Positions 42,389 to 61,464 of a stretch of 64,000 nt of DNA are shown here, piece by piece; positions within the stretch are counted from its first letter, which is position 1; each line of letters begins with the position of its first letter. Under the pieces are notes generated by a model that worked only from the letters and a program-made list of their open reading frames with translations, was not told where the DNA came from and did not search any database. This DNA is from Pontibacter sp. G13 (GTDB lineage Bacteria; Bacteroidota; Bacteroidia; J057): assembly GCF_031851795.1 (NCBI RefSeq), contig NZ_CP134696.1:4174501-4238500 (forward strand). Direction: 5' to 3'. The position numbers were made by a program, and so were the translations under genes.

Positions 42389-43375
42389 ATGATGAGAACC
42401 TTTACTTTAATCTTGGGGTTGGTTGTCTGGGGGTTTGCGCCTGTTTTTGGGCAGAAGGCATTCCAGAATACCATGTTCCCCTACACCCAGTTTGCCTACA
42501 ATCCGGCAGCCGCTGGGACTCCCTTCCTCGGGATGTTGGAAGGCCCCAATGTGATGCTGTTTTACCGGAACCAATACACGAATATTGAAGGAGCCCCACA
42601 GATTGCTGGCGGTTCTTTTTCAATGCCCATTGGTAATGGCGAGGCGGGTTCATTTGGTGTGAATTTTTTCAACGACCAGATTGGACCTTTCAGCAATATC
42701 ATGGCCGATGTGGCTTACTCCTTCGGACTTGAAGTTGGTGCAACTGGGAAGCTCTCCTTCGGTGCCGGTTTTGGTTTCCGTCAGGTCAAGCTTGACCCAA
42801 GCCAGTGGGTGTATAATCAAGATGGTGGCCCAGACCCTGTTTTGCCATTGGCTCCTACCTCCGGAATCGTACCAGTCTTAAATGCTGGACTCCACTACCA
42901 ATCAGATAATCTCTTTGTCGGTATCGCAGGTCAGAACTTGACTGAACCTTCTATAGAGTCACTCCTCGGTGCAGAAAACTTGGGGGATGACTCCAATGTG
43001 CCTCGGACATTCTCCTTGACGGGTGGGTATCGATTTGATCTTGGCGTAGAGGGTCGTTCTTCCTTGACTCCTGCTGTCATGCTGCAATATGACCTGGTAA
43101 ATATTCCTCAGGTATCAGCGAGTGTGTATTGGAACTACGCGCCGTTGGTGGTTGGTTTGAACCAACGTTTGGTCAACAGTGAATCTACCGGCTTGATGGT
43201 AGGTGCGATGCTGAATGATCGCCTGTTTGCTGGATATGCTTTTGATTACATCTGGAACAGCCTGAACAGCGCTGGGGATGTAAGTTCGCATGAGTTGGTG
43301 GTGTCTTATACATTTACGACATCCACATCCAATCCTAGAAAGAGAAAGGATATTAACCCGAACACCAACGACTAA
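42389..43375 (+). CDS. PorP/SprF-family outer-membrane protein
   Basis: A 328-aa outer-membrane barrel of the type IX secretion PorP/SprF family. The signal peptide ends at FGQ (residue about 21) and is followed by the family opening FQNTMFPYTQFAYNPAAAG with NPAAAG. Alternating barrel strands follow (GSFGVNFFNDQIGPF, LFAGYAFDYIWN) and end in VVSYTF. The last 18 residues are a hydrophilic basic tail (NPRKRKD) after the final strand. It stands directly before gldK, as porP stands before porK in Porphyromonas. The start may be either of two adjacent ATGs (42389 or 42392). It differs from the many other SprF paralogues by its place in the core locus. Confidence 0.92.
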   Translation: MMRTFTLILGLVVWGFAPVFGQKAFQNTMFPYTQFAYNPAAAGTPFLGMLEGPNVMLFYRNQYTNIEGAPQIAGGSFSMPIGNGEAGSFGVNFFNDQIGPFSNIMADVAYSFGLEVGATGKLSFGAGFGFRQVKLDPSQWVYNQDGGPDPVLPLAPTSGIVPVLNAGLHYQSDNLFVGIAGQNLTEPSIESLLGAENLGDDSNVPRTFSLTGGYRFDLGVEGRSSLTPAVMLQYDLVNIPQVSASVYWNYAPLVVGLNQRLVNSESTGLMVGAMLNDRLFAGYAFDYIWNSLNSAGDVSSHELVVSYTFTTSTSNPRKRKDINPNTND

Positions 43376-43596
43376 AATTTTTCCCGTTACAGGTAGGGTA
43401 TATTCCTTGAAATGTGTTAAGAATAGTAGGGAATTACGTTTCAAGTAATCGGGAATCTTTTTAAAATAGCGTAATAAATTCTGAGTGGATTAATCTCAAG
43501 CGGTTTTACTTTTTTGATTGTCCGGTTACCAGGAACAACCTCTGCACAATACGTGTTTGCAACCGAAAATCGTACTTATTGAAATTGAGCGCAGAT

Positions 43597-44676
43597 ATGA
43601 AAAAGGCATTTCTCACACTTGCCGTTTTGTCGGTCATCCTTCAGGGCTGTGGCTTGTTTGGCTCGGGAGGAACTGGTCGCGCCGGTGAGTTGACAGGCGT
43701 CCAACAACGCATGGAGTGGGACCAATACCAGCCAATGGGCATGGTATATATCCCACCAGGCAGCTTCCACATGGGGCAAAACGATCAAGACGTGCCCTAT
43801 TCTCAGATCTCTCACAATAGACAGATTACCATTTCTGCCTATTTCATGGATGAGACTGAGGTAACCAACAATGAGTACCGTCAATTTGTGTTCGGTCCCT
43901 CATCAGAAGAAACTAACGCGTACCAAGAAAGTGGAGCGATTGACACAATTGACCCACGTTACGCAGACATCATCATTCCTGATACGACTGTATGGATTCG
44001 GGATTTCGCTTATTCCTACAATGAGCCGTTGATGGAAAACTACTTCTGGCATCCAGCATTTGATGACTATCCAGTAGTAGGGGTGAACTGGTACGCAGCA
44101 CAGGCATTTTGCCAGTGGAGAACTGCTCACCTGAACAACTTCCGCGAAGAGCGCGGCGAAGCTGCAATGCCTCGCTTCCGTCTTCCAACCGAAGCTGAAT
44201 GGGAGTATGGTGCCCGTGGCGGTTACGAGCACAAGCTCTACCCATGGGAAGGTCCTTACCTCCGCAACTCCAAAGGATGTTTCTTGGCTAACTTTAAGCC
44301 TGGGCGTGGAGATTACATCGCAGATAACTTTGAGTACACTGCACCTGCTAACTCCTACATCCCCAACGACTACGGTCTGTACAACATGCCAGGTAACGTA
44401 GCAGAATGGTGTGAAGATGACTTCGAAGAAGCAGGTTACACTTATTCTCACGACCTGAACCCACGCTATCTCGACCCACGTTTCAAATTAGATGATCGTG
44501 AGCCAGGTGGCGCTAAAATCCGCAAAGTTATCCGCGGTGGATCTTGGAAGGACATTGGATATTTCCTCTCCTGTGGTACAAGATCCTACGAATACGCTGA
44601 CACTGCTAAGTCCTTTATTGGATTCCGTTGCGTAGCAACCGTGATTGGTCGCTCCGGAGCAGCTGGCGGATTCTAA
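43597..44676 (+). CDS. gldK: Gliding/T9SS lipoprotein GldK (PorK)
   Basis: Outer-membrane lipoprotein that builds the periplasmic ring of the type IX secretion system with GldN. The 359-aa product has a lipobox (VILQGCG, Cys at residue 18) and a formylglycine-generating-enzyme-like (SUMF1) fold over most of its length: GMVYIPPGSFHMG, DETEVTNNEYRQF, PVVGVNWYAAQAFCQWR, RLPTEAEWEYGARGG, NMPGNVAEWCEDDF and VIRGGSWKD. The ATG at 43597 is taken rather than a TTG at 43579. A hairpin separates it from gldL. No exact TAnnTTTG lies in the 221 bases upstream. Confidence 0.96.
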   Translation: MKKAFLTLAVLSVILQGCGLFGSGGTGRAGELTGVQQRMEWDQYQPMGMVYIPPGSFHMGQNDQDVPYSQISHNRQITISAYFMDETEVTNNEYRQFVFGPSSEETNAYQESGAIDTIDPRYADIIIPDTTVWIRDFAYSYNEPLMENYFWHPAFDDYPVVGVNWYAAQAFCQWRTAHLNNFREERGEAAMPRFRLPTEAEWEYGARGGYEHKLYPWEGPYLRNSKGCFLANFKPGRGDYIADNFEYTAPANSYIPNDYGLYNMPGNVAEWCEDDFEEAGYTYSHDLNPRYLDPRFKLDDREPGGAKIRKVIRGGSWKDIGYFLSCGTRSYEYADTAKSFIGFRCVATVIGRSGAAGGF

Positions 44677-44803: not shown

Positions 44804-45574
44804 ATGGCAAAGAAAAAAGGATTCTTGAAGTCCCGCGCCGGTAAGGTCGTGTTGAACTTCATTTACGGTGCCGCCGCCGCGGTGGTAATCGTTGGTGCCC
44901 TGTTTAAGATTCTTCACCTCGAAGGGGCATCTGAGATGTTGATCGTGGGGATGGGTGTTGAGGCACTTGTATTCTTGATCTCTGCATTCGATCCTCCCGC
45001 AGATGACTACGAATGGGAACGAGTGTACCCTGCTTTGGTTTCCGATAGCTACGAACCAGCTGACACTTGGGAGCCTACTGAACTTCCAAAATTGGATGGA
45101 AAAGTATTTGATGATCTGTCTACAACCTTGACTGGTTTGAATGACAACGTCGGAAAACTCAGCACTGTAGCTGATGCTGCATCTGCAACCAACGATTACG
45201 CTTCTAAAATCAAAGAAGCTTCCAGCAAAATCGAAAGCTTGAATAACAGCTACTCTGTAGCAGTTGATTCTATGTCCGGTTTCGCTAACGCCGCCACTGA
45301 CGCTCAAGCTTACCACGAGCAAGTTCAGACTATCACGAAGAACTTGAGCTCTCTGAACTCTATCTACGAGTTGGAGCTTCAGGATGCCAAGACTCACTTG
45401 AAGTCCTTGAACCAGTTCTACGGTAGCATGACTGAAGCAATGGCTAGCATGGCCGAGGCTTCTAAAGATGCTGAATCCTACAAAAAAGGCATGGCTGAGT
45501 TGAACACCAACTTGCAGAAACTCAACGGTGTCTACGGAAATATGCTCAACGCAATGGCTGGTGGAGCACGATAA
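44804..45574 (+). CDS. gldL: T9SS/gliding motor protein GldL (PorL)
   Basis: Inner-membrane stator-like part of the proton-driven GldLM motor. The 256-aa protein has two membrane helices at about residues 15-37 and 43-62; the second contains the acidic residue E53 (GVEALVFLISAFDPP), at the place of the essential membrane glutamate of the family. A long cytoplasmic region of helical repeats follows, rich in Ala, Ser and Asn (SLNSIYELELQDAK, MASMAEASKDAESYKKGM). It precedes gldM by 53 bases. Confidence 0.96.
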   Translation: MAKKKGFLKSRAGKVVLNFIYGAAAAVVIVGALFKILHLEGASEMLIVGMGVEALVFLISAFDPPADDYEWERVYPALVSDSYEPADTWEPTELPKLDGKVFDDLSTTLTGLNDNVGKLSTVADAASATNDYASKIKEASSKIESLNNSYSVAVDSMSGFANAATDAQAYHEQVQTITKNLSSLNSIYELELQDAKTHLKSLNQFYGSMTEAMASMAEASKDAESYKKGMAELNTNLQKLNGVYGNMLNAMAGGAR

Positions 45575-45627: not shown

Positions 45628-47322
45628 ATGGCAGGTGGCAAATTATCTCCCCGGCAGAAGATGATCAACATGATGTATCTCGTGTTGCTCGCACTGCTGG
45701 CCATGAATGTAAGCGCCGAGATCTTGAACGCCTTTGAGAATATCAAAGTTAAGCTTCAAGTCTCCGCGACGAATGCAAATGACAACTCCTCCGCTTTCAT
45801 GGAAAGCATGAAGGCTGAAATTGCTGAGGAGATTGAGAATGAAGGAAAACGTACGAATGAAGGCTTGGTCGATACCCTCGATCAAATCAAAGCTCGTACT
45901 TCCGCGATGATCGGTATTATCGACAATCATATCCGCGTACTGGAAGACAGTATCTCTGGGCGTGACGAGGAGACAAACCAGATCCTAAAAAAGGATGAAA
46001 CCGAAAAGAACCTCCAATATTGGATGGGCATTGGCAAGGAGCAAGAAAAGAATGAAAAGCGCGGAAACGGGCAAGCCTTTATCTTGCACAATCAGCTAGA
46101 TGAATACGTTGGATACTTGATTAAAATCTATAATGAGAATAACAAGGATCCTAAACAGCGGAAAAATCCTGAAGAGGAATACATCACTGATGATCCAACG
46201 GAAACGTTGGGTGGACAGCCTAAGACTTGGGAGCGTTACACCTTCGAGGGTCCATTGGTAGCGAACACTGCTACGTTGGAAGCGATGAAGTTGGACGTTT
46301 ACGAGAAAGAAAAAGAATTGCTTGACCTCTTGAACACTCGTCTCGGGGTAGCAACCTTTAAGGCCGACGGTGTGAAAGCTTTGTTGGCTCCAGCTGCAGA
46401 GATTGTTCCTGCAGGTCTTCAGTACGAAACCAAACTTTTCGTTGTCATGACTTCTTCCGCGATGAAGCCTACTTGGTCTGCTTCTTCCGGTAATGTTAAA
46501 GAAGACGAGTCTGGTGACTTCTCAACCTTGACGATTCCTGCCAACGGAAGAGTGATTCCTAAAGGAAAGTCCGAGGGTATTCAGAAATACTCTGCAACTG
46601 TAAAGGTACCTAAGGCTACAGGTGGTTTCGAAGAAATCCCGGTAGAAGGTTCCTTCAAAGTTCGCCGCCCAGAGATTGTGGTAACCTCCGCTGCGATTCA
46701 GATCCTTTACCGCAACTGTGGTAACGATGTTAATATCGACGTTCCTGCACTCGGAGACCAATACAACCCGGTCATCGCTGCAAACGGAGGTTCTATCATC
46801 AAGTCCAAGTCTTCTAAAAAGAAGGTTCGGATCGTGCCTACGGGTAAGCAGTGTGTGGTAAATGTTAAGAGTAATACCAACGGCAAGACTGTAGATATCG
46901 GAAACATCACCTACAAAGTAGTTGATCCTCCGAAGCCATCTATCGTCATGTACGTCAACAACAAGCCATACAATGGTTCTCAAATGATTCCAAAGGCTTC
47001 CCGTGTATCCGTACGTCTCGAAGCAGATCCTGACTTCGCTGCTGCGATGCCTCAAGATGCCAACTACGGAATCACGAGTGTTGATGTACTCGCACAGCTC
47101 GCACTTGGACCTCCTACCACTGTAAACAGCATCCGTTCCAAAGGCAAAGACGCCACGAAAGGAATCGCTGTGAACATGGGTACGAAAGTTCGCCAAGCGC
47201 GCGCCGGAACTAAGGTTTATGTTCGCTTGAACGAAATCGTTCGGATCAACTTCCAAAAGAAGCCTATTCCGGATAAGCGATTTAAAGAAATTGAGCGTAC
47301 GCTTTCACTTGTAGTAAGATAA
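45628..47322 (+). CDS. gldM: T9SS/gliding motor stalk protein GldM (PorM)
   Basis: Periplasm-spanning shaft of the motor. The 564-aa protein starts with the conserved PRQKMINMMYLVLLALLAMN, whose membrane helix inserts through the GldL pentamer, then four periplasmic domains: a helical D1 (about 35-230) and three beta domains. Landmarks are YWMGIGK, KRGNGQAF, WERYTFEGPLVANTATLEA, RRPEIVV, the paired cysteines of LYRNCGN and GKQCVVNV, and NEIVRINFQ at the end. gldN starts 12 bases later. A second copy lies at 48549. Confidence 0.97.
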   Translation: MAGGKLSPRQKMINMMYLVLLALLAMNVSAEILNAFENIKVKLQVSATNANDNSSAFMESMKAEIAEEIENEGKRTNEGLVDTLDQIKARTSAMIGIIDNHIRVLEDSISGRDEETNQILKKDETEKNLQYWMGIGKEQEKNEKRGNGQAFILHNQLDEYVGYLIKIYNENNKDPKQRKNPEEEYITDDPTETLGGQPKTWERYTFEGPLVANTATLEAMKLDVYEKEKELLDLLNTRLGVATFKADGVKALLAPAAEIVPAGLQYETKLFVVMTSSAMKPTWSASSGNVKEDESGDFSTLTIPANGRVIPKGKSEGIQKYSATVKVPKATGGFEEIPVEGSFKVRRPEIVVTSAAIQILYRNCGNDVNIDVPALGDQYNPVIAANGGSIIKSKSSKKKVRIVPTGKQCVVNVKSNTNGKTVDIGNITYKVVDPPKPSIVMYVNNKPYNGSQMIPKASRVSVRLEADPDFAAAMPQDANYGITSVDVLAQLALGPPTTVNSIRSKGKDATKGIAVNMGTKVRQARAGTKVYVRLNEIVRINFQKKPIPDKRFKEIERTLSLVVR

Positions 47323-48239: not shown

Positions 48240-48272
48240 GGGGTCGCCTTAACCAAGGCGACCCCTTTTTTT
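48240..48272 (+). terminator. Terminator of the gldK-gldN operon
   Basis: A perfect 11-bp stem (GGGGTCGCCTT with its complement), 4-base loop and seven T, 24 bases past the gldN stop. The second gldM gene lies beyond it and so probably has its own promoter. Confidence 0.92.
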
Positions 48273-48548: not shown

Positions 48549-50222
48549 ATGGCTAGTGGAAACCTCCCACCGCGGCAGAAGATGATCAACATGATGTACC
48601 TCGTACTGTTGGCCATTCTCGCATTGAATGTAAGCTCAGAAGTATTGGATGCCTTTGTTCAGATTCGGGGAAATCTGAATCATTCAGCCTCTCATGCTCA
48701 GACACTTTCGCAGGATTATGTCCTGATGCTCAAATCTAAAATCCAAGATGAAATCGAATTCGAAGGCAATCACAAAAATGAAGGCCTATTGGATACCTTG
48801 GATCTGATTCAGAACAAGACCCAAGCTTTGATAAAGGCCTTGGACGGTCATGTATCAGAAATGGAGGAAATCGCGACTTGGGATGAAGAATTGCAAGATT
48901 ATCGCAAAAAGGATGAGTTGGAGGTGAATTACCAATATTGGATGGGCCTCGATGAAGATGCCAACGAGCGACGGGGAAATGGTAAGGCCTTTGATTTGAG
49001 AGATGAATTGGATGCCTATGGAGACTTTATTCATGGATTTTATGCTTCAATAGGGGATTCCGCTTTGGAGGAAATTGAGCCAGAACTGATGCAAGATCCC
49101 AAGCCAGATCCCAAAGACCCCGGAAAGCGCTGGGAGCAATACACCTTTCAAGGGCCTGTAGTTGGGAATTTGGCCACGTTGGAAGCCTTGAAGTTGCATA
49201 TCCTCAATCAGGAAAAAGAACTCTTGGAACAGTTCCGAAAGCGACTTGGTGTCCACCAATTTGCTCCAGACAAGGTCATGGCTATCAGTATGCCGCAAAG
49301 TCAAGTGGTGGTTGCTGGAACTCCCTTCAAGACCCGTCTATTCGTAGGAATGGGATCTTCTCAAATTCAGCCAGATTTCAAGTCTGGATCTGGGCAGTTG
49401 AATCTGGAAGATGATGGAAACTCTGCGTGGCTGACCGTGATGGCTTCAGGCGCGAGTATCAGAAATGGTGCGGCTGAAGGAAAACAAAGATATCAGGCGA
49501 CGGTATTGGTGCCCAAGACAGATGGTTCATTCGATACGCTGACTGTATCGGAGGAATTTACTGTCCGAAAGCCGGAGGTGGTTCTGAGATCCCGTGTCAT
49601 CCAAAAGCTCTATCGCGAATGTGCCAACGAAGTGCAGATTTCCATCCCAGCATTGGATGAATATGAACCCGTTGTGTCTGTCTCCAGCGGCTCGATCAAT
49701 CAAAGAAGCAATTCTAAGGATTGGTTCCTGATCAAGCCCCGGGGCAATCAATGCAAGGTCAATGTAAAGGCGAAGGTTTCCGGTTCGGTGATTCCTGTGG
49801 AAGAGCTGGATTATCGAGTGCTTTCAACTCCCAAACCTACTGTGCAAGCTAAAATTGGGAACAAGACACTCTCTGGTTTCAATTCGATCAAGAAAGGCCA
49901 AAGCCTGAAGATTCGAATTATTCCAGAGGAAGCTTTCGCCGAAATGTATCCCAAAGATGCCAACTACCGAGTCAAGACTGTGGAGATCTACCTCAAGAAA
50001 GGAATCGGTCCCCCTCGATTGATTGGGCAAGTACCTGCATCCAATGTCAATGCCCGAAATGGCGTGACGGTGAGAATGCCTAGCGCTGTGAGAGATGCTA
50101 AAGCAGGAGACCAACTATTCATCAAACTCAAGGATGTTGAGCGACGAAATTTTGAAGGTCGATTCATCCCTGAACGGACCTTGTCCGAAAGCGAATGCAC
50201 CATTCCCTTAACGGTACAATAA
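48549..50222 (+). CDS. Second GldM-like motor stalk protein (paralogue)
   Basis: A full-length 557-aa GldM homologue directly after the gld operon. It keeps the membrane helix (PPRQKMINMMYLVLLAILALN), the D1 landmarks YWMGLDE, ERRGNGKAF and WEQYTFQGPVVGNLATLEA, RKPEVVL, both conserved cysteines (LYRECAN, GNQCKVNV), the late PKDANYRV and the final VERRNFEGRF. No second gldL accompanies it, so it would have to use the GldL of the main operon or one elsewhere. It is separated by a terminator and has its own terminator, so it can be regulated on its own. Role unknown; it could assemble a second motor or a mixed dimer. The start at 48549 aligns with GldM. Confidence 0.94.
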   Translation: MASGNLPPRQKMINMMYLVLLAILALNVSSEVLDAFVQIRGNLNHSASHAQTLSQDYVLMLKSKIQDEIEFEGNHKNEGLLDTLDLIQNKTQALIKALDGHVSEMEEIATWDEELQDYRKKDELEVNYQYWMGLDEDANERRGNGKAFDLRDELDAYGDFIHGFYASIGDSALEEIEPELMQDPKPDPKDPGKRWEQYTFQGPVVGNLATLEALKLHILNQEKELLEQFRKRLGVHQFAPDKVMAISMPQSQVVVAGTPFKTRLFVGMGSSQIQPDFKSGSGQLNLEDDGNSAWLTVMASGASIRNGAAEGKQRYQATVLVPKTDGSFDTLTVSEEFTVRKPEVVLRSRVIQKLYRECANEVQISIPALDEYEPVVSVSSGSINQRSNSKDWFLIKPRGNQCKVNVKAKVSGSVIPVEELDYRVLSTPKPTVQAKIGNKTLSGFNSIKKGQSLKIRIIPEEAFAEMYPKDANYRVKTVEIYLKKGIGPPRLIGQVPASNVNARNGVTVRMPSAVRDAKAGDQLFIKLKDVERRNFEGRFIPERTLSESECTIPLTVQ

Positions 50223-50255
50223 TCATTTTTTAAGGCTTTGATAACTGATAGCTTG

Positions 50256-50296
50256 CGTGAGGATCTTAATATGAAAGATCCTCACGTTTATTTTTG
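50256..50296 (+). terminator. Terminator of the second gldM gene
   Basis: A perfect 12-bp stem (50256-50267 with 50275-50286), 7-base loop, and a T-rich tail (TTTATTTTT), 34 bases past the stop. Confidence 0.88.
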
Positions 50297-58834: not shown

Positions 58835-59647
58835 TTACCGCCGCTTCTCGCAATATTCCTTGAGATTCTGAATGCGCGGATAATTCGGATCGAGCGCCAA
58901 GATCTTTTCGATATAAGGCCTAGCATCCTCGCAGTGGTAGTTGTCCTCCGCTCCCGTTGGATTGAAGTGGTAGTTGGCCATGACCTCGTAGGCGATGATC
59001 AATTTTTCCTGTTGCTGATTCGTCAGGTCCTCGATCGGGATATGGCCAAACTGTTGAATCAGCTCCTCGGCAGGGCCTTTTACCTTCCACTTGCTCCCAT
59101 CTGGATCAAGTTCAGTGGCAATTCTGAATCTTATGTTTTGTATTCGAAGGGTATCGGGAGCAAGGCTATGGCACCTTTGAAAGGTCGTATCTGCTTGGGC
59201 TAGCTTGCCTGATTGATACTGAGCCATCCCCAATTGGTAGAGATCAGAGAAGCTTGGAGATGGGGCTTCAGCCAATGCTTGCTCTCGGTACGCTGCTTCA
59301 ATCGCGTAGATGGGCTTAGTGTCCTCCATCTTGATCTTACTAAGGGTTTTGAGACTGTCTGATTCATGGAGATACTGTTGCCAGAGCAAGGATTTCCGTT
59401 GAAGTTCTTGCTCAGTCTTTTCGTCTCGAAGATGTTTGGGAGGCGGACATAAGACTTGGAGATCAGCGGCCTGCTTCAATGCCGCTCGGGACCGTTTTCG
59501 AAGGTCGCTTGCTTCGACCCTAATACTGCGCGCCACTGCATGGCAGGAGTCAGCCAGTTCCAAGAGCCTGTCCACAGACTGCGCAGTTGCTGGAGAAGCA
59601 TTCAAGGTCATCCATCCAGCAATGGCGAGATATAGAGGAACTTTCAT
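58835..59647 (-). CDS. Exported TPR-type protein, paralogue of the two genes to the right
   Basis: A 270-aa exported protein (signal peptide residues 1-23, SPATAQ). The first half carries LLELADSCHAVARSIRVEASDLRKR and a Cys-Pro-Pro-Pro stretch. The second half holds TPR units and the shared ending with ANYHFNPTGAEDNYHCEDARPYIEKI, homologous to the C-terminus of the 619-aa TPR protein at 60964. So it is a shortened relative of that protein. Its N-terminal half (59327-59647) is the left end of a 1069-bp tandem duplication. It lacks the poly-T terminator found after its two paralogues; the 139-bp repeat stands there instead. Confidence 0.82.
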   Translation of the reverse strand: MKVPLYLAIAGWMTLNASPATAQSVDRLLELADSCHAVARSIRVEASDLRKRSRAALKQAADLQVLCPPPKHLRDEKTEQELQRKSLLWQQYLHESDSLKTLSKIKMEDTKPIYAIEAAYREQALAEAPSPSFSDLYQLGMAQYQSGKLAQADTTFQRCHSLAPDTLRIQNIRFRIATELDPDGSKWKVKGPAEELIQQFGHIPIEDLTNQQQEKLIIAYEVMANYHFNPTGAEDNYHCEDARPYIEKILALDPNYPRIQNLKEYCEKRR

Positions 59648-60395
59648 GGTGATTCTGTTGATGAGGTTGAATCAAGATAAGATTTCTCACAAACAGATTC
59701 AATGGCAAGCTTTTGGTACCCATAGATTCCCCCTTGGGGTTCTGGAAATTTATGTATTCATGGGAGAGGAAAAAGCGAGAAGCTGCAAATCCACATTTGC
59801 AGCCGAAAAGGAGACCACAAGCAGCTTCAAAAAAAAAGCGGGTGCCCAATGCATTGGGCACCCGCAGGCGTGTTTGTTTGGGACTGGTCCCGGATTATCT
59901 GTTTTCGGCGCAGTAATCAGCCAAGCTCTTGATACGAGCATAGTCTGGAGAGATCTCGTAGATTTTGTCTACGAAAGGCTGCGCGTCATCACAGTGGTAG
60001 TTTCCATCCTCACCGGTTGGGTTGAAGTTGTAGTTGGCCAATACTTCGTAAGCGACCAACAAAGCTTCTTTTTCTTTGGCACCCAAGGAAGCGGCGTCCA
60101 TTTCACCCCATACATTTGCGATGTCGGTAGCAGGCACTTTCACGAGCCAGTCCATGGTTTCTTCGTCTTCTCCTTCGAGGGAGTTGGCGATACGCATCCG
60201 GTATGAGTAAGGCGCGAGGTAGTCAGCCTTGAGTTCGTGGCAACGCTTGAAGGTTTCGTCAGCTTCTTTGAGCATGCCTGCATTGTACTGCGCCAATGCG
60301 AGTTTGTAGATCAAAGTCAAGCTTTCAGATTCGGCGATTTCCAATGCCTTCTCGCGGTAGTGAGCTTCCAGCGCGTAGACAGGCTTGGTTTCCTC
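59327..60395 (-). repeat. 1069-bp tandem duplication, copy 1
   Basis: Near-identical to 60396-61464, directly adjacent, exact period 1069. It covers the N-terminal half of the gene at 58835, the intergenic region with terminator, and the C-terminal half of the chimeric gene. All three junctions (59322-59326, 60391-60395, 61460-61464) read TCCTC. Confidence 0.92.
59829..59865 (-). terminator. Terminator after the chimeric TPR gene
   Basis: A perfect 28-base palindrome (59838-59865, core CAATGCATTG) followed on the minus strand by nine T. Copied in the duplication at 60898-60934. Confidence 0.9.
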
Positions 60396-60716
60396 GATCT
60401 TGATCCGACTAAGGGTTTTGAGACTGTCTGATTCATGGAGATACTGTTGCCGGAGCAAGGATTTCTGTTGAAGTTCTTGCTCAGTCTTTTCGTCTCGAAG
60501 ATGTTTGGGAGGCGGACAGAAGACTTGGAGACTAGCGGCCTGCTTCAACGCCGCTCGGGACCATTTTCGAAGGTCGCCTGCTTCGGCTTTGATACTGCGC
60601 GCCACTGCATGGCAGGAGTCAGCCAGTTCCAAGAGCCTGTCCACAGACTGCGCAGTTACTGGAGAAGCATTCAAGGTCATCCATCCAGCGATGGCGAGAT
60701 ATAGAATAACTTTCAT
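59895..60716 (-). CDS. Chimeric exported TPR protein made by tandem duplication
   Basis: A 273-aa protein built from two parents. Residues 1 to about 107 (signal peptide, LLELADSCHAVARS, CPPPKHLRDEKTEQEL) are a diverged copy of the N-terminus of the gene at 58835, with about a dozen amino-acid changes. From ETKPVYALEAHYREKALEI on, it equals the C-terminus of the 619-aa TPR protein, with no amino-acid difference that I can see. The fusion point is at 60395/60396. The frame is open and both its upstream region and its terminator were copied, so it is likely expressed. The function may be to compete with or extend the parent proteins; this is inference. Confidence 0.85.
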   Translation of the reverse strand: MKVILYLAIAGWMTLNASPVTAQSVDRLLELADSCHAVARSIKAEAGDLRKWSRAALKQAASLQVFCPPPKHLRDEKTEQELQQKSLLRQQYLHESDSLKTLSRIKIEETKPVYALEAHYREKALEIAESESLTLIYKLALAQYNAGMLKEADETFKRCHELKADYLAPYSYRMRIANSLEGEDEETMDWLVKVPATDIANVWGEMDAASLGAKEKEALLVAYEVLANYNFNPTGEDGNYHCDDAQPFVDKIYEISPDYARIKSLADYCAENR

Positions 60717-61464
60717 GGTGATTCTGTTGATGAGGTTGAATCAAGATAAGATTTCTCACAACAGATTCAATGGCAAGCTTTTGGTACCCATAGATTCCCC
60801 CTTGATGTTCTGGAAATCTATGTATTCATGGGAGAGGAAAAAGCGAGAAGCTGCAAATCCACATTTGCAGCCGAAAAAGAAGACCACAAGCAGCTTCAAA
60901 AAAAAAGCGGGTGCCCAATGCATTGGGCACCCGCAGGCGTGTTTGTTTGGGACTGGTCCCGGATTATCTGTTTTCGGCGCAGTAATCAGCCAAGCTCTTG
61001 ATACGAGCATAGTCTGGAGAGATCTCGTAGATTTTGTCTACGAAAGGCTGCGCGTCATCACAGTGGTAGTTTCCATCCTCACCGGTTGGGTTGAAGTTGT
61101 AGTTGGCCAATACTTCGTAAGCGACCAACAAAGCTTCTTTTTCTTTGGCACCCAAGGAAGCGGCGTCCATTTCACCCCATACATTTGCGATGTCGGTAGC
61201 AGGCACTTTCACGAGCCAGTCCATGGTTTCTTCGTCTTCTCCTTCGAGGGAGTTGGCGATACGCATCCGGTATGAGTAAGGCGCGAGGTAGTCAGCCTTG
61301 AGTTCGTGGCAACGCTTGAAGGTTTCGTCAGCTTCTTTGAGCATGCCTGCATTGTACTGCGCCAATGCGAGTTTGTAGATCAAAGTCAAGCTTTCAGATT
61401 CGGCGATTTCCAATGCCTTCTCGCGGTAGTGAGCTTCCAGCGCGTAGACAGGCTTGGTTTCCTC
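60396..61464 (-). repeat. 1069-bp tandem duplication, copy 2
   Basis: The second copy, covering the N-terminal half of the chimeric gene, the intergenic region and the C-terminal half of the 619-aa TPR gene. Differences from copy 1 cluster in the N-terminal coding half and a few intergenic bases; the C-terminal coding half looks identical. Confidence 0.92.
60898..60934 (-). terminator. Terminator after the 619-aa TPR gene
   Basis: Same perfect 28-base palindrome (60907-60934) with nine T on the minus strand, 30 bases past the stop. Confidence 0.9.

Follow-up and report, generated by a model that had tools for sequence, protein, structure and literature searches.

A second full-length member of the GldM/PorM family is encoded beside the gldKLMN operon in the window (the whole stretch of 64,000 nucleotides of Pontibacter sp. 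G13 DNA that was analyzed), in a genome with a single recognizable GldL. This genome is far from being alone in combining two GldM with one GldL, and the arrangement is more general than the initial annotation of this DNA had supposed. From sequence comparisons, we propose with a probability of roughly 0.55 that the second protein, GldM2, is an alternative axle for a shared GldL wheel, with a tip that has been released or re-targeted. This figure, which we hold loosely, refers to a second shaft that would be either homodimeric or freely exchanging.

According to the account in PMC12239597, the GldLM motor is an asymmetric assembly of five GldL and two GldM subunits, in which only a single GldM at any moment has its Arg9 paired with Glu49 of GldL. 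The periplasmic arm of GldM is described as driving the GldKN ring, in whose place a model from 2025 has a GldJKN track (PMC12635249); in the modeling described in the same source, the tip of the PorM dimer, i.e., domain D4, lies in a cleft between PorN copies.

The gldM2 gene and its surroundings

On its 5' side, gldM2 is preceded by porP/sprF, gldK, gldL, gldM and gldN, in that order. The features of the locus are:

42389..43375, + strand: porP/sprF-type outer-membrane protein, from profile matches
43579..44676, + strand: gldK, 466 bits against a cut-off of 350
44804..45574, + strand: gldL, 256 aa, 217 bits against a cut-off of 68
45628..47322, + strand: gldM, the operon copy, 564 aa
47335..48216, + strand: gldN, over the cut-off of PF19841; 72 bits on TIGR03523, below its cut-off of 86
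48240..48265, + strand: terminator-like hairpin between gldN and gldM2, 11 pairs, 8 of them G-C, T7
48549..50222, + strand: gldM2, second full-length GldM/PorM, 557 aa, ATG start, no internal stops; part with the transmembrane (TM) helix 1-36, D1 37-232, D2 233-341, D3 342-425, D4 426-557
50255..50287, + strand: terminator-like hairpin 3' of gldM2, 13 pairs, 6 of them G-C

On the TIGR03517 model (cut-off 180), GldM2 scored 238.4 bits and the operon GldM 220.7 bits. GldM2 was also over the cut-offs of PF12081, PF21601, PF21602 and PF12080, i.e., the four periplasmic domains D1-D4, and it is from these Pfam matches that the domain borders given above were taken. The two proteins are 41% identical over 564 columns (BLASTP). 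A single-chain AlphaFold2 model of GldM2 had a pLDDT of 85.5 and a pTM of 0.46, with D4 among its best-modeled parts, and its five top PDB matches were all PorM or GldM chains (7cmg, 6ey4, 6ey5). The GldLM chains 7sau and 7sax ranked 12 and 40, with target TM-scores of 0.78 and 0.76; whole-chain TM-scores were low when expressed by query (0.27-0.31), and the placing of the domains relative to each other differs. By the sequence features tested, GldM2 is therefore a member of the GldM/PorM family in which only the usual linkage to gldL is missing, and since that linkage, usual as it is, lies outside the family model, its membership stands.

The gaps between genes are 53 bases for gldL-gldM, 12 bases for gldM-gldN and 332 bases for gldN-gldM2. 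From the long gap and the hairpin within it, gldM2 is apparently a transcription unit separate from gldKLMN, and it is thus predicted not to be co-transcribed with gldL. The hairpin scan yielded 19 terminator-like sites per 12 kb, compared with 11.5 from shuffled sequence, so that a single site is little proof; the hairpins on the two sides of gldM2 were among the longest and most G-C-rich of the scan.

A profile search of the three contigs of the home genome (7.67 Mb, 98% complete) found two GldM and one GldL over the cut-off, with no second GldL over the cut-off. A 160-aa membrane protein encoded near C1:4852307 (L033:1357-1839), which has a stretch resembling the first GldL helix, was considered as a hidden second GldL and rejected: it reached 21 bits on GldL_N, below the cut-off of 24, and no Glu was seen in the would-be second helix. 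Several further Bacteroidia genomes have similar short, weak GldL matches. The home genome also has a second, unlinked GldN (L138:8020-8922, corresponding to C1:3332106-3332915), with 75 bits on PF19841. Two or more GldN matches were present in 11 of the 13 genomes of the family, and the unlinked GldN was rejected as a ring partner of GldM2, since an extra GldN is also found in three genomes (G002-G004) that have one GldM. Because the home genome encodes a GldJ-like protein (C1:3468730; 331 bits on TIGR03530, below the cut-off of 382.9), the secretion ring and the gliding track are both possible targets of GldM2 there. All 18 sampled genomes of the order, with or without gldM2, have a GldJ-like protein. 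No genome was shared between the 74 that have two strong GldM outside the host's family and the 49 with a GldJ match, a result of little weight given that the model finds mainly the short type of GldJ. Elsewhere in the window, a tandem repeat with a period of about 1069 (59169-61174) overlies minus-strand genes with weak TPR matches; one stretch of 300 bases is 100% identical and others are 79-97% identical, and the repeat is a recent tandem duplication.

The host's family (f1) was sampled with 13 genomes, including the home genome. The order gldM-gldN-gldM2 was found on one contig in five of them, the home genome counted (G000, G006, G007, G008 and G010), while in two others (G001 and G009) the second GldM is on another contig and does not follow gldN. 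In G005 the contig stops within the start of a GldM directly after gldN. Two genomes are uninformative on gldM2, i.e., G011, where the contig stops at gldN, and G012 (87% complete), where no GldL or full GldM was found. The three genomes of one genus (G002-G004) have a single GldM each, and the gene that follows gldN in G003 does not encode a GldM. A single GldL over the cut-off was present in 12 of the 13 genomes, with none found in G012. All five tandem genomes have a terminator-like hairpin in the gap from gldN to gldM2; the total numbers of sites in the other four were 2, 7, 4 and 6, compared with 2.6, 3.6, 3.0 and 2.9 from shuffles, so that the telling point is the shared position after gldN.

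In a tree of 61 GldM, the eight second (orphan) copies, which come from eight genomes of seven genera including the home genome, formed one clade with a support of 99/99. Operon and orphan copies of the family grouped together (87/95), with the single copies of G002-G004 outside the group. This points to one duplication, or to one duplication plus a loss in the genus of G002-G004, followed by retention. The operon copies did not form a clean clade, the copy from G001, which is cut by a contig end, standing beside the orphan clade with weak support (82/83). End branches were 0.51-0.82 for the orphans and 0.20-0.52 for the operon copies.

These comparisons bear on several points made in the initial annotation. 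It had described a complete GldM homologue of similar length, and this agrees with the lengths (557 vs 564 aa), the profile score and the presence of all four domains. The strong terminator before the gene and the terminator of its own correspond to the hairpins at 48240-48265 and 50255-50287, which are terminator-like in a scan with 19 sites against 11.5 expected. The lack of a gldL partner extends to the whole genome, with its one GldL over the cut-off, and the order gldM-gldN-gldM2 recurs in the five tandem genomes. A decayed or lineage-private copy, which had been named as the contrary outcome, is not what we found, because the gene is intact and its orthologues in eight family genomes group as a single clade. 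The two cysteines described as conserved are both present in GldM2 of the window, but they do not serve together as a landmark of the group: Cys358 is present in all eight orthologues, whereas Cys402 is present in three (those of the window, G001 and G006).

Second GldM genes across the Bacteroidia

A GldM over the cut-off was found in 381 of 396 Bacteroidia genomes. Two strong GldM matches were present in 80 of the 396, spread over 24 family codes, and 77 of these 80 had one strong GldL match, with two in G065 and G380 and none in G158. These numbers are a hand tally at strict thresholds (E <= 1e-45 for GldM and E <= 1e-25 for GldL), in which the best few candidates per genome were scored. 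The GldM count misses split alignments, such as that of G187, which has two GldM on a detailed look, and a GldL as divergent as one in G093 (75 bits) would escape the GldL threshold. In the 29 of the 80 genomes that were looked at individually (six of f1 and 23 others), the two matches were confirmed as separate genes. When 57 multi-match genomes were followed in detail, 21 had two full-length GldM over the cut-off together with one GldL over the cut-off, and three (G065, G194 and G380) had two GldM and two GldL each. G093, which is one of the 77, has two full-length GldM, the operon GldL, and the divergent GldL of 75 bits beside a third GldM that is below the cut-off.

In many other lineages the orphan genes are unlinked to the operon, and the surrounding stretches of 4.6-8 kb are free of gldL, gldK and gldN. 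In seven MAG loci (L065, L072, L076, L089, L095, L099 and L113), the second gldM lies a few kilobases after gldN. No second gldL was present in the available stretches of these loci, of which L072 lacks the gldL-gldM junction and several stop shortly beyond the second gldM. In the interval from gldN to the second gldM, six of the seven (all except L076) have a gene of about 640 aa, which gave ABC-transporter ATPase domain matches in the three tested (L065, L089 and L113) and which we would guess to be of the ABC-F type. Further GldN-like genes lie in the same interval in L065 and L076. The copies from the MAG loci formed two clades, each supported at 100/100, which were sisters at 100/100 in the tree of 61 GldM.

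A wider tree was built from 81 chosen rows, taken from the genomes followed in detail, from six additional genomes and from the earlier loci, by a quick search with SH-aLRT support only. In this tree, operon and orphan copies grouped within their own lineage with starred support in nine cases, i.e., f1, f15, f18, f19, f25, f29, f34, f37 and f57. Besides these nine, f43 gave a grouping, and ten orphans from nine families made up a single deep clade (support 100). The groupings suggest at least nine independent duplications of GldM, unless gene conversion makes old duplicates look recent.

Three further arrangements were seen in these genomes. An extra gldN adjoins the second gldM in G056, G083, G093, G157 and G187. 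Divergent second gldL-gldM pairs lie away from the main operon in four genomes (G049:C5, G053:C44, G194:C4 and G093:C9), and these, unlike the orphan genes, are likely to be true second motors. There are also open frames of about 220-250 aa that match D3-D4 only (G173:C125, G173:C128 and G190:C1:2551244-2552440), some of them side by side, which perhaps represent free-standing shaft tips.

The membrane helix and the D4 tip

Arg9 was present in all 31 orphans that have an N-terminus (two of the 33 orphan rows do not) and in all 45 operon or gldL-adjacent rows, and it was invariant across 52 aligned GldM. When the operon and orphan copies of the same genome were compared, the mean identity of the helix part was 72% in f1 and 83% in 23 other genomes, while that of D4 was 40% and 33%, respectively. 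Since there is no other recognizable GldL and the helix with its proton-coupling Arg9 is kept, GldM2 is likely to dock on the same GldL as the operon GldM. Three GldM-like proteins of other f1 genomes have a different N-terminus: in L139:8972-10603 (-), L140:9445-11055 (-) and L141:9308-11101 (+), from G009, G008 and G009, respectively, the TM helix is apparently replaced by a lipoprotein signal, with a Cys shortly before a LDAFEQNY-like stretch. The lipobox pattern matched L139 and L140, and L141 was assigned by eye; all three seem to be a GldM arm that lacks the GldL-binding helix.

We compared the conservation of each domain among operon copies and among orphans in five lineages, i.e., f1, the deep clade, f15, f43 and f18, of which f43 and f18 comprise two genomes each. 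In all five, D4 was less conserved among the orphans. In that order of lineages, the D4 identities (operon/orphan) were 58/35, 44/28, 87/46, 57/21 and 50/30%, whereas those of D1 were 47/45, 39/41, 84/77, 51/44 and 45/52%. Pairwise realignment of each domain gave similar D4 values (59/36, 44/29, 87/46, 58/29 and 48/33%). The difference was not confined to D4 in every lineage: the f1 orphans also showed lower conservation of the helix part (89/72), D2 (59/45) and D3 (60/45), and D3 was less conserved in the orphans of f43 and f18. The f18 orphans exceeded the operon copies in the conservation of the helix part, D1 and D2. The f15 identity set consisted of G103, G157 and five of the seven MAG loci, L089 and L099 being omitted (the latter is apparently the same record as G103), and the deep-clade set of nine of the ten orphans in the tree, with G263 left out.

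The same asymmetry was seen at individual sites. Positions of D4 fixed only in operon copies outnumbered those fixed only in orphans by 41:2 in f1 (G001, with its operon copy cut by the contig end, being dropped from this set), 16:1 in the deep clade, 57:1 in f15, 42:7 in f43 and 27:6 in f18. This skew exceeded that of D1-D3, with Fisher p-values of 1.5e-3, 8.5e-4, 6.6e-7, 2.3e-3 and 3.8e-4, respectively, which serve as guides because sites and rows are not independent. The ratio of D4 divergence to the mean divergence of D1-D3 was 0.70-1.08 for operon copies and 1.19-2.25 for orphans; four single-copy sets gave 0.57, 0.99, 1.11 and 1.43, of which the value of 1.43, from the two genomes of f70, is within the orphan range. 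Despite the 41:2 ratio in f1, the D4 fold is retained in GldM2, as judged from the Pfam match and the AlphaFold2 model.

In f15 (rows L072, L089, L095, L099 and L076), dN/dS for D4 was 0.11-0.36 in orphans and 0.02-0.14 in operon copies, with dS mostly above 1 and near saturation; the corresponding values for D1-D3 were 0.06-0.18 and 0.04-0.13. These values indicate that the f15 orphans are under purifying selection throughout, and that it is looser at the tip; no positive selection was seen on the orphan D4 of f15 at these dN/dS and dS values. The divergence of D4 may thus represent relaxed constraint rather than a new partner.

Interpretation and relation to known motors

Because the helix and the build of the arm are kept and the sequence of the tip is not, the reading we favor for GldM2 is that of an alternative axle serving the same wheel. 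Its N-terminal helix would enter the same GldL pentamer as that of GldM; its periplasmic arm has the normal four-domain build and ends in a tip freed from the sequence that the operon GldM keeps. A common wheel would in this way be fitted with a second shaft under separate transcription, which might push on another distal partner or on one of altered shape, or grip the GldN surface less strictly. The initial annotation had suggested both that GldM2 uses the same GldL, which the retained helix and the Arg9 facing GldL make likely, and that it has a different distal interface, with which the divergence of D4 in the orphans fits.

Another way to employ a second shaft would be a heterodimer, in which GldM and GldM2 are mainly or always paired within one GldL pentamer and D4 of GldM2 serves to regulate or to space. 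Contact with GldN would then require the D4 of one chain only, freeing that of GldM2 from the GldN surface. This idea fits with the greater drift of D4 than of D1-D3 in orphans and with an AlphaFold 3 model described in PMC12635249, in which, at weak confidence metrics, most contacts of the PorM tip with PorN come from one D4. Loci with one wheel and two axle genes are also known, according to descriptions of aglR with aglQ and aglS, which are both of the ExbD/TolR type (PMC3169522), and of exbB with two exbD in Riemerella (PMC4446302). However, the hairpins before gldM2 in five of five tandem genomes are awkward for an obligate 1:1 partner, as are the orphans elsewhere that have no gldL, gldK or gldN within 4.6-8 kb; in addition, none of the 31 orphans has lost Arg9, a loss that a mixed axle might tolerate. 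We consider such a mixed axle rather unlikely, and the separate position of gldM2 and the unlinked orphan genes are the reason for favoring a homodimeric or freely exchanging shaft.

Two other explanations appear improbable to us, to a similar degree. If gldM2 were a back-up doing the job of gldM, or a means of raising its dosage, the shared length, fold and domain order would be accounted for, but redundancy should relax all domains alike; instead most lineages show a similar degree of D1 conservation in orphan and operon copies, D4 changes most in five of five, and gldM2 has stayed intact with about 41% of its residues identical to those of the operon GldM, its clade extending across seven genera. 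Alternatively, GldM2 might stand in the inner membrane outside GldL, as a free-standing periplasmic arm with the function of a scaffold, sensor or decoy. That it has no gldL of its own would agree with this, and the GldM-like putative lipoproteins of relatives (L139, L140 and L141) suggest that GldM arms may work away from GldL, yet the helix and its Arg9 persist in all 31 orphans that have an N-terminus, which would be needless in a mere anchor.

For the Bacteroidia as a whole, we would suggest tentatively, and with the odds somewhat against it, that interchangeable shafts for one GldL wheel have evolved repeatedly, working alone or mixed with GldM, and that their D4 tips re-target or gate the output. 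If this were true, the two-chain axle of the 5:2 motor would be split between two specialized proteins, one of them gripping the GldN track and the other having a different role. In 5:2 motors an axle of two chains is seated asymmetrically within a ring of five-fold symmetry, and an arrangement with one ring gene and two axle genes offers a direct test of whether the axle needs two identical chains, as well as a test of whether the tip of the shaft sets the output of the motor, i.e., secretion or gliding. The D4 signature is a pointer to where a partner should be sought.

Our finding of two strong GldM and one strong GldL in 77 of 396 Bacteroidia genomes may be set against a review of these motors, whose section 8 gives the annotated counts of GldL and GldM as similar (PMC9389320). 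A phylogeny of the type 9 secretion system (T9SS) is described as having kept the best hit per strain only (PMC7323717), which would hide paralogues. A description of a second GldM did not appear in our literature search, which included the accessible text of PMC12239597, PMC9389320, PMC12635249, PMC8986121, PMC11354047 and PMC7323717; the search left most subscription papers aside, and an earlier notice, e.g., in a genome survey, is possible. What is new in the second GldM with one GldL is chiefly that it is a variant, arising repeatedly, of an already known motor.

The closest relative of GldM2 among characterized proteins is the GldM/PorM of the 5:2 GldLM (PorLM) motor of Flavobacterium johnsoniae and Porphyromonas gingivalis, with which it shares the family, the four domains and the Arg9 helix. 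It differs in lying outside the gldKLMN unit, in having no GldL of its own, in its divergent D4, and in being present beside a complete operon copy. Duplication of GldN, which has the paralogue GldO, likewise affects one part of the same machine, but GldN is a ring or track protein and not the shaft of the motor. The AglR-AglQ-AglS gliding motor of Myxococcus xanthus also combines one wheel-type gene with two axle-type genes, although its proteins are reported to belong to the MotA/TolQ and ExbD/TolR families and both of its axle genes are clustered with the wheel gene (PMC3169522). Duplicated exbD genes with one wheel gene are described as tonB-exbB-exbD1-exbD2 in Xanthomonas campestris (PMC3551730) and as exbB2-exbD21-exbD22-tonB2 in Riemerella (PMC4446302), and the former report describes exbD2 as dispensable for iron uptake and needed for other functions; here the family and the task differ, and the exbD copies lie in one cluster. 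The likeness of GldM2 to AglRQS and to ExbB-ExbD1-ExbD2 is one of working principle only, between different protein families, with gldM2 lying beyond a terminator-like hairpin.
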